This document shows, one piece after another, positions 3,407 to 41,468 of a DNA stretch of 64,000 nt; position 1 is the stretch's first letter, and every line of letters starts with the position of its first letter. The notes beneath the pieces were generated by a model, which was given only the letters and a program-made list of their open reading frames with translations, made no database searches and had not been told where the DNA came from. The translations under genes and the position numbers were made by a program. Source of the stretch: Pseudanabaena sp. FACHB-2040 (lineage in GTDB: Bacteria > Cyanobacteriota > Cyanobacteriia > Phormidesmidales > Phormidesmidaceae); assembly GCF_014696715.1 (NCBI RefSeq), contig NZ_JACJQO010000022.1:248001-312000 (forward strand), in the 5' to 3' direction.

Positions 3407-3430
3407 TCAACACTTTTGTGTTGATCCGGA
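3407..3430 (+). promoter_or_regulatory. DIF1-like TCCGGA next to a perfect dyad, candidate patX promoter element
   Basis: TCAACAC and GTGTTGA (3407-3413 and 3418-3424) form a perfect 7-bp dyad around TTTT. TCCGGA follows immediately at 3425-3430. TCCGGA is the published DIF1 core found near -35 in HetR-dependent promoters and reported upstream of patX genes. Weak -10 candidates are TTACCT (3451-3456) and TAATAC (3456-3461). The motif lies 179 bases before the start codon, farther than the 69 bases reported for other patX genes, so a leader of about 145 bases is implied. Confidence 0.4.
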
Positions 3431-3608
3431 AAAGGTCGAAGTAACCCCGATTACCTAATACAGAGCTTTAAAAAAAAACGGCGTGGAGAAGGAAGGTTCC
3501 ACAGAAATTCACCTAGATGAAATTCAGGGATTTCACCCAGCTAGTTTTTCCTGACCCCACCTCAGAGGCACCGTAACAGGGAATAGAAACGCAGAGATAC
3601 CGAGTTCC

Positions 3609-3977
3609 ATGTACACTATCTCCCTTTCTCCATCCATGCAGCTAGCCACCTTGGCAGCGGCTCTTGCGGTCGGCATTGTGACAGCCGTCCACGGGCAAGC
3701 TGAGCTGCAGAATCCCGTTCGGCTTTATACAGGGTTCTTCAGTAATATTGACGACCGTGGCAGTGGTCGGGTAGTCCCCAATCAATTTCAGTCCAACTTG
3801 TTCCTACCCAATTACCTGCTAGGATTTCGAGGTAGCGGGCGAATTTCTGGTGACCCAAAGGAATCGATTCCCAGTTCTCTCCAAAAAAGCCCCTCAACCT
3901 CATCAGGTCAGGCATCTACCCCGTTAGCCTATCGAGGCAGCGGCAGAATCAATCTCAAACGGCAGATAGCGGTATAA
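3609..3977 (+). CDS. patX: PatX-like secreted protein with three RGSGR pentapeptides
   Basis: 122 residues. The N-terminus has an uncharged hydrophobic stretch (residues 10-27, LATLAAALAVGIVTAVHG) that looks like a signal peptide, with possible cleavage near VHG or GQA. The rest is polar and low-complexity, with RGSGR at residues 50-54, 74-78 and 109-113 (bases 3756-3770, 3828-3842, 3933-3947). Each is preceded by D, F or Y and followed by V or I. RGSGR is the HetR-binding pentapeptide of PatS, HetN and PatX. PatX is defined by a hydrophobic N-terminus plus RGSGR and co-occurs with hetR, which starts about 200 bases downstream. Three copies are atypical: PatS, HetN and the PatX proteins I know of carry one. 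An in-frame stop at 3552 fixes the start to 3609 or Met10 (3636). No strong ribosome binding site is seen. Confidence 0.85.
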   Translation: MYTISLSPSMQLATLAAALAVGIVTAVHGQAELQNPVRLYTGFFSNIDDRGSGRVVPNQFQSNLFLPNYLLGFRGSGRISGDPKESIPSSLQKSPSTSSGQASTPLAYRGSGRINLKRQIAV

Positions 3978-4143: not shown

Positions 4144-5136
<993 letters not shown>

Positions 5137-40823: not shown

Positions 40824-41468
40824 ATGCGAGAACATTTTATTCAAATTGCCTCTGTCTTTTCTAATCGCTACAGCGGCTGGATTCTTTGGAATTTATTCCT
40901 TGCCTTTATCCCGCTGGCGCTGAGTTTTTGGCTGTTTCGGCAGCGTCGGCCTGTACCTCGCAACGCCCTCTGGTGGCTGGCCCTGATTGTCTACGTCGCA
41001 TTTCTGCCGAATGCACCCTACGTGCTGACAGACATTATTCACTTCATTCGCGCCACCCGCGATGGGCTTTCCATCATTGCGCTGACGGTCGCCTATATCC
41101 CGCTGCACGTGCTGTCAATTTTGGCCGGGTTTGAAGCCTACGTCGTATCTCTGCTGAACCAAGGGCAGTATCTTCGCAATCAAGGGGCCAAACGGTATGT
41201 CCTCTGGGCCGAACTGATGACCCATGCCCTGGCTGCAGTTGGGGTGTTTATTGGCCGCTTTCGCCGTTTCAACAGCTGGGATATTATCTCCGATCCAGAC
41301 GAGGTGCTGCTGCAAACGCTTGACGACCTGACCTCAAGGCGGCCACTGGCGGTCATTCTGGCGATGTTTTTGATTATTGCTGGACTGTACTGGCTATTTA
41401 AGCAGATTACCTTGGGGTTAGTGCTGCGGATGCGCTATGCCCGTTTAGGCAAGGAAATCGAGCTATAA
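40824..41468 (+). CDS. DUF1361 membrane protein
   Basis: 214 residues with six or so membrane segments. FLPNAPYVLTDIIHF and GVFIGRFRRFNSWDIISDP are the characteristic conserved segments of DUF1361. Role unknown. It is followed by a strong terminator shared with convergent glgP. Confidence 0.85.
   Translation: MREHFIQIASVFSNRYSGWILWNLFLAFIPLALSFWLFRQRRPVPRNALWWLALIVYVAFLPNAPYVLTDIIHFIRATRDGLSIIALTVAYIPLHVLSILAGFEAYVVSLLNQGQYLRNQGAKRYVLWAELMTHALAAVGVFIGRFRRFNSWDIISDPDEVLLQTLDDLTSRRPLAVILAMFLIIAGLYWLFKQITLGLVLRMRYARLGKEIEL

Follow-up and report, generated by a model that had tools for sequence, protein, structure and literature searches.

A multi-copy form of patX, with three RGSGR motifs in one predicted precursor, adjoins hetR in Pseudanabaena sp. 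FACHB-2040 and recurs across its family

In the window (the whole 64,000-nucleotide stretch of Pseudanabaena sp. FACHB-2040 DNA that was analysed), a small gene upstream of hetR encodes a predicted precursor with three copies of the pentapeptide RGSGR. Judged by its sequence, the gene is a multi-copy patX, an identification based on the adjoining hetR, the hydrophobic N terminus, the RGSGR motif and a shared candidate promoter element, TCCTGA. The triple motif, which a sequence-only reading of this DNA had treated as a single curiosity, proved to be a family-wide trait, since 51 of the 55 genomes counted in the window's family (Nodosilinea and kin) encode a PatX with two to nine motifs. The features concerned are the following.

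3425 to 3430, plus strand: canonical DIF1 hexamer TCCGGA, 184 nt before the patX ATG, not conserved
3549 to 3554, plus strand: TCCTGA, candidate promoter element, 60 nt before the patX ATG and one base off the DIF1 consensus TCCGGA
3609 to 3977, plus strand: patX, precursor of 122 residues plus stop, with three RGSGR in the translation
3642 to 3689, plus strand: hydrophobic core, putative N-terminal export signal, residues 12 to 27, read from the sequence
3756 to 3770, plus strand: RGSGR copy 1, residues 50 to 54, context DD-RGSGR-VV
3828 to 3842, plus strand: RGSGR copy 2, residues 74 to 78, context GF-RGSGR-IS
3933 to 3947, plus strand: RGSGR copy 3, residues 109 to 113, context AY-RGSGR-IN
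4180 to 5136, plus strand: hetR, likely start at ATG 4180 (or 4198), in an open frame from TTG 4147

Upon translation, all three motifs were exact and lay at the residues, and between the flanking residues (D, F and Y before; V or I after), that the sequence-only reading had given, and the codons indeed differed between the copies. From the composition of the protein, 0.0007 copies of RGSGR would be expected; among 200,000 shuffled versions, 108 contained one RGSGR and none contained two or more, which rules out chance or composition as the origin of the repeats. The only other RG(S/T)GR in the six frames of the window was an RGTGR at 40960 on the minus strand. The hydrophobic N terminus and the hetR immediately downstream, both part of the same reading, were borne out as well. 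The highest 13-residue Kyte-Doolittle mean at the N terminus was 2.5 (a measure of hydropathy only), with no K or R ahead of the hydrophobic core. The ATG of hetR follows the patX stop by 202 nt, and its product reached 519.6 bits with the NCBIfam HetR model (cut-off, 489) and matched both HetR domains of Pfam, S48 and HetR_C.

The residues that bind the peptide are retained in this HetR. In the HetR-PatS6 structure, as described in the excerpted text of PMC4649674, two peptides occupy the two clefts of the HetR hood dimer, E253, D270 and D278 hold the arginines and the serine, E254 and D256 hold the free N-terminal amino group, and R223 adjoins the C-terminal carboxyl of the peptide. The window HetR agrees at all six positions (Anabaena numbering, carried from an alignment with an assumed offset of 24). 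In a set of 137 HetR sequences, in which some genomes occur twice, R223, E253, D270 and D278 were present in 136, with one gapped; D256 was E in 3, and E254, the most variable contact, was A, Q, T or V in 14, with one more gapped. Variants at E254 occurred in single- and multi-copy genomes alike, and no clear link was found between changes in HetR and copy number. The window genome also carries, on contig C13, a second hetR-like gene that is 47% identical (loci L003/L036), and similar genes occur in many members of the family; no PatX was found upstream of the second hetR copies of G362 and G389.

Pfam models gave no match to this small protein, and with the NCBIfam equivalog model NF047413 (heterocyst_PatX) it scored 12.3 bits, below the cut-off of 30, while three relatives scored 9.5 to 15.5 bits. 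Across 388 genomes of the class, with at most 15 candidates scored per genome, the model matched 33 genomes, 31 of which reached the cut-off; 23 of the 33 belonged to f32, the family that includes Anabaena and Desmonostoc, and none to the window's family (f1), f15 or f24. Because the PatX proteins of these three families are missed, including the single-copy PatX of f15 and f24, NF047413 covers a narrower group. Of 30 loci located by this model 28 were readable, and all 28 had one exact motif. At the N terminus, a hydropathy of at least 1.6 was reached by 47 of the 51 multi-copy PatX proteins and by 55 of the 65 single-copy ones.

The upstream element is common to PatX genes from many families. 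Of the 116 PatX genes whose 5' end is complete, 115 carried TCCTGA, and in 114 of the 116 it lay 57 to 68 nt before an ATG, the spacing being the best of the first three ATGs, a choice that favours a tight distribution. It was present in all 52 genus representatives (within 140 nt before patX), and in 20 rounds of shuffling of these 52 upstream regions no hexamer occurred in more than 12 of them. Its position at 60 nt in the window also supports the start codon assigned to patX. The DIF1 motif TCCGGA drives patS and patX in Anabaena (PMC7377430, in the part available to us); as a conserved promoter of the present genes the exact hexamer was rejected, because among 114 loci with at least 300 nt of upstream DNA it lay within 400 nt of the ATG in no more than 5. 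The one-base variant TCCTGA may be the −35 element of these genes. About 18 nt beyond TCCTGA, the leaders of many families (3549 to 3608 in the window) share a block near (C/T)GTA(A/T)CAG..TAG, which is possibly a −10 region. Several leaders also carry an inverted repeat; a conserved RNA hairpin was rejected, as RNAalifold gave no consensus pair on 52 leaders.

The spread of repeated motifs was assessed by searching for HetR in the 388 genomes of the class and in 63 genomes of the window's family, after which the DNA preceding hetR, or surrounding a match to PatX, was read at 149 loci of 147 genomes. A PatX-like frame, meaning one with RG(S/T)GR, fewer than 230 residues and a start codon before the first motif (or a 5' end that was cut), was present at 117 of these; two out-of-frame RG(S/T)GR patterns inside hetR (L024 and L037) were excluded. 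The 32 loci without PatX consisted of 20 from f32, in which patX does not adjoin hetR, two second hetR copies, the cut contigs of G071 and G371, and loci of f22 (three), f34 (two), f4, f15 and f24 (one each). The count within the window's family covers 55 of its 63 genomes (G071, G113, G176, G281, G365, G371, G374 and G383 were left out, for a cut contig, a locus that was not retrieved or the absence of a hetR match), and its multi-copy PatX proteins had two (n = 5), three (n = 27), four (n = 12), five (n = 4), six (n = 1) or nine (n = 2) motifs, the PatX of G317, whose 5' end is cut, having at least three. A single copy was found in four of the five genomes of genus g4. Nodosilinea nodulosa PCC 7104, whose genome has presumably long been public, is a member of the family with three RGSGR copies in its PatX.

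Outside this family the picture was reversed. In ten other families, 61 of 62 PatX proteins had exactly one motif, the exception being G183 with eight, and 30 further genomes from little-sampled or unsampled families yielded 15 candidates (G059 and G020 being doubtful), 13 with one motif and two with several (five and three). Altogether 3 of 77 PatX proteins outside the window's family were multi-copy, all three in one second family, that of G183. The assumption that RGSGR is normally present once therefore holds outside the window's family (74 of 77) but fails inside it, and the hetR-linked reading frames with two or more RGSGR that had been proposed as a check do exist, in 51 of 55 genomes of the family.

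On a tree of HetR (76 rows), made by a quick method, with several long branches and with 43 of the 55 counted family genomes, a branch supported at 97% set the 43 rows of the family (39 multi-copy and 4 single-copy) apart from the others. The expansion in the second family stood apart, with 89% support for a group of three multi-copy rows and one single-copy row, and the single/multi label required five changes on the tree, compared with about 25 in shuffles.

Several loci are worth recording individually. The expansion in the second family consists of L161 (G183), L290 (G230) and L297 (G062), with eight, five and three copies, respectively; in the same family, L300 (G177) has one intact motif and one RGSDR, which by its sequence is likely a motif loss. 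The highest count was found at L055 and L069 (G155 and G347), where nine RGSGR, mostly in a 12-residue tandem unit, lie in a PatX of 139 residues. At L155 (G123, f34), two patX-like genes with one RGSGR each precede hetR; here, as we read the locus, the copy number was raised through gene duplication and not through motif duplication.

Within the family, the motifs are kept while their surroundings change. Across 20 sequences, 18 from Nodosilinea-type genomes and two from the window's genus, none of the 15 motif columns varied in its amino acid, although each of the 15 codon positions showed two or more synonymous codons; of the 38 non-motif columns after the first motif only 2 were invariant, namely F directly ahead of the second copy and Y directly ahead of the third. 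The DD that precedes the first copy did not vary either. Conservation of RGSGR in relatives, the check set for the earlier reading, was thus found, and its view of the copies as selected and old is supported, as most of the family keeps them and the motif stays invariant while the codons vary. Relative to the nearest relative, the other genome of its genus, window patX had no amino-acid-changing difference in 15 motif codons and 22 in 74 spacer codons (dN 0.13 and dS 0.32 for the whole gene). Because D, F and Y are fixed per copy at the −1 position, the unit that is kept appears to be the hexapeptide X-RGSGR, and six residues is also the size of PatS6 (PMC4649674) and PatX6 (PMC12756182), as given in the portions of these papers at hand. 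Decayed copies were rare: a scan of 117 proteins gave only RGGGR in G287 and RSTGR and RGSDR in G171, and inspection by eye added the RGSDR of G177 and broken last units in G312 and G359.

The residues that flank the motif differ between the two forms of PatX. At +1, I, V, L or F followed 179 of 191 copies in multi-copy proteins, and this hydrophobic position is a likely cut site, going by the sequence pattern; of 65 single-copy proteins, 23 have one of these four residues there, 22 have R and 15 end with the motif itself. At −1, H preceded the motif in 51 of 65 single-copy proteins, as opposed to D, F and Y in the window. Among 52 multi-copy proteins, D, E, H or N preceded the first copy in 49 and Y, W or F the last copy in 49, counts that are inflated by relatedness since the genomes are not independent; by multi-copy genus of the window's family, the order held in 10 of 11 for the first copy and 9 of 11 for the last. 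The second family breaks this order, with Y before the first copy in G183, G230 and G062 and H before the last in G183. From start to start, the motifs lie 10 to 35 residues apart overall: the distances are 24 and 35 in the window and 18 and 23 in the majority of Nodosilinea-type genomes; g9 mostly has 12 and G183 has 10 to 11.

From the sequence and by analogy with Nostoc, we consider it probable, with a good measure of doubt, that the product is an exported precursor from which several penta- or hexapeptide inhibitors of HetR are cut. PatX would be exported by Sec and then cut in the periplasm after the last R of each motif, a step for which the peptidase in Nostoc is PatP, and a second cut would fall before the first R of the motif or one residue upstream. 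Up to three peptides would be released (RGSGR, or DRGSGR, FRGSGR and YRGSGR), would reach neighbouring cells or the same cell, and would there bind the hood domain of HetR and take it off DNA; owing to the repeat, each transcript and each export event would yield more inhibitor molecules. The single motif in four of the five g4 genomes counts against this reading. Three signals per PatX molecule, as the sequence-only reading had suggested, are plausible on these grounds. In Nostoc, according to the excerpted text of PMC12756182, PatX is exported by a Sec signal, requires export for its action and is a substrate of PatP, a peptidase of the periplasm; the PatX hexapeptide HRGTGR binds HetR at 88 nM and takes it off DNA. 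No nifH above the cut-off was found in the window genome (best match, 219 bits; 394 required), and the controlled process is therefore probably not heterocyst spacing; going by the literature, filament fragmentation or another filament-level decision would be the likeliest target.

Other readings of the repeats fit part of these data. An uncut PatX that binds several HetR clefts together and so gains avidity, the multivalent ligand that had been put forward earlier, would suit a hood dimer that takes two PatS6 in two clefts (PMC4649674) and a family in which 51 of 55 PatX have two or more motifs. We regard it as highly improbable, since a spacing of 10 to 35 residues offers no fixed geometry, Nostoc PatX needs export and without its signal peptide showed no HetR binding in a two-hybrid assay (PMC12756182, in the part seen), and an N-terminal extension that brings a peptide to seven residues or more should hinder it in the cleft (PMC4649674). 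These Nostoc data, together with the cleft structure and the varying spacing, favour the release of short peptides. It is also unlikely that a single copy works, for example the last, with Y before it, and that the others are passive leftovers of duplication. Copy number does change fast in some genera (four to nine in g9), the near-identical units of g9 look like recent tandem duplication, and an aromatic residue precedes the last copy in 49 of 52 multi-copy proteins; against this, the three copies are equally invariant in the 20 sequences while their codons vary, and decayed motifs are rare among the 117 proteins scanned. The copies may also be different signals (D-, F- and Y-RGSGR) that differ in release, transport or lifetime, a reading compatible with the cut precursor and, in our judgement, a tentative one. 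Each copy keeps its own −1 residue in all 20 sequences, the polar-first and aromatic-last order holds in 49 of 52 proteins at either end, and two-pheromone Phr precursors yield peptides of unlike affinity (PMC11343458, in excerpt); however, kinship inflates these counts, which fall to 10 of 11 and 9 of 11 per genus, the order fails in G183, G230 and G062, and the −1 side chain is reported to have no effect on HetR binding (PMC4649674, in the text available). The structure paper, as far as its text was seen, thus lends no support to a −1 residue that tunes affinity for HetR, and the fixation of this residue per copy would have to be explained by cutting, transport or lifetime.

A role of PatX apart from HetR in non-heterocystous filaments, in which the repeats serve another receptor or a process of the envelope, we hold to be improbable too, if slightly less so than a single working copy. 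It draws on Leptolyngbya BL0902, a filament without heterocysts in which deletion of patX altered gene expression largely independently of HetR, and in which, for the gene groups with opposite effects of PatX and HetR, the transcriptomes of the patX-hetR deletion resembled those of the patX deletion and not those of the hetR deletion (PMC11298460, in the portion consulted). G243, which is taken to be BL0902, encodes a PatX with three motifs, so this published result, read as HetR-independent, concerns the window's kind of PatX, and it counts against a simple inhibitor role. It would be accounted for either by a second target of the peptides or by a growth condition that masks the link to HetR. 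Against a role apart from HetR stand the position of patX, which remains adjacent to hetR, the repeated unit, which is the exact HetR ligand, and the contact residues, four of which are kept in 136 of 137 HetR sequences (one gapped), E254 differing in 14 and D256 being E in 3. In the main text of the BL0902 paper, as available, RGSGR occurred only in reference titles, the motif being written RG(S/T)GR otherwise, and no remark on repeats was seen.

The multi-copy form shares with the PatX of heterocyst-forming and other filamentous cyanobacteria its partner hetR, a hydrophobic N terminus, RGSGR and an element about 60 nt before the ATG, and differs from it in having two to nine motifs instead of one (Khudyakov et al. 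2020, PMC7761841; Xu et al. 2025, PMC12756182; both in part). PatS and HetN of Anabaena have RGSGR as an inhibitor of HetR in common with window PatX; PatS is a peptide of 17 residues with one C-terminal motif, and HetN a putative ketoacyl reductase with one internal motif (excerpts of PMC12756182, PMC7761841 and PMC4649674). The closest likeness in working principle is the Rap-Phr system of Bacillus phages, likewise a secreted propeptide with repeated identical or similar signals by which an adjacent regulator is switched off; there, two-pheromone Phr precursors release both peptides, and up to 8 copies have been reported (PMC11343458, in the sections available). The receptor is Rap and not HetR, the phylum is another, and the process is quorum sensing and not filament differentiation; as the receptor gene in the window gives HetR domains, membership in the RRNPPA group (to which Rap-Phr belongs) was not found, and the likeness is one of principle and not of kinship. 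Tandem pheromones in one precursor are thus already known. In the open literature searched, no mention of repeated RGSGR in PatX was found; the founding paper (Elhai and Khudyakov 2018), which lay outside that search, may contain one, because Nodosilinea nodulosa PCC 7104 carries three copies in what we take to be an old public genome.

Filamentous cyanobacteria had HetR, with PatX as its companion, earlier than they had heterocysts (PMC7761841, in the part at hand). Since the NCBIfam PatX model misses these lineages, surveys that are based on such models would undercount PatX; this may be why Leptolyngbya cf. ectocarpi LEGE 11479 was listed without PatX in a survey of 2025 (PMC12756182, as excerpted). 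We suggest, as a speculative extension that is more doubtful than the cut precursor itself, that a non-heterocystous family-level group and, independently, a second group use PatX as a "polyprotein" signal in which the copy number (one to nine) would set the dose, and that in the first group the ordered copies, polar-X first and aromatic-X last, may emit a set of different morphogen hexapeptides, unequal in release or range. The natural series of one to nine ligand copies per precursor offers a ready experiment on inhibitor dose and pattern.
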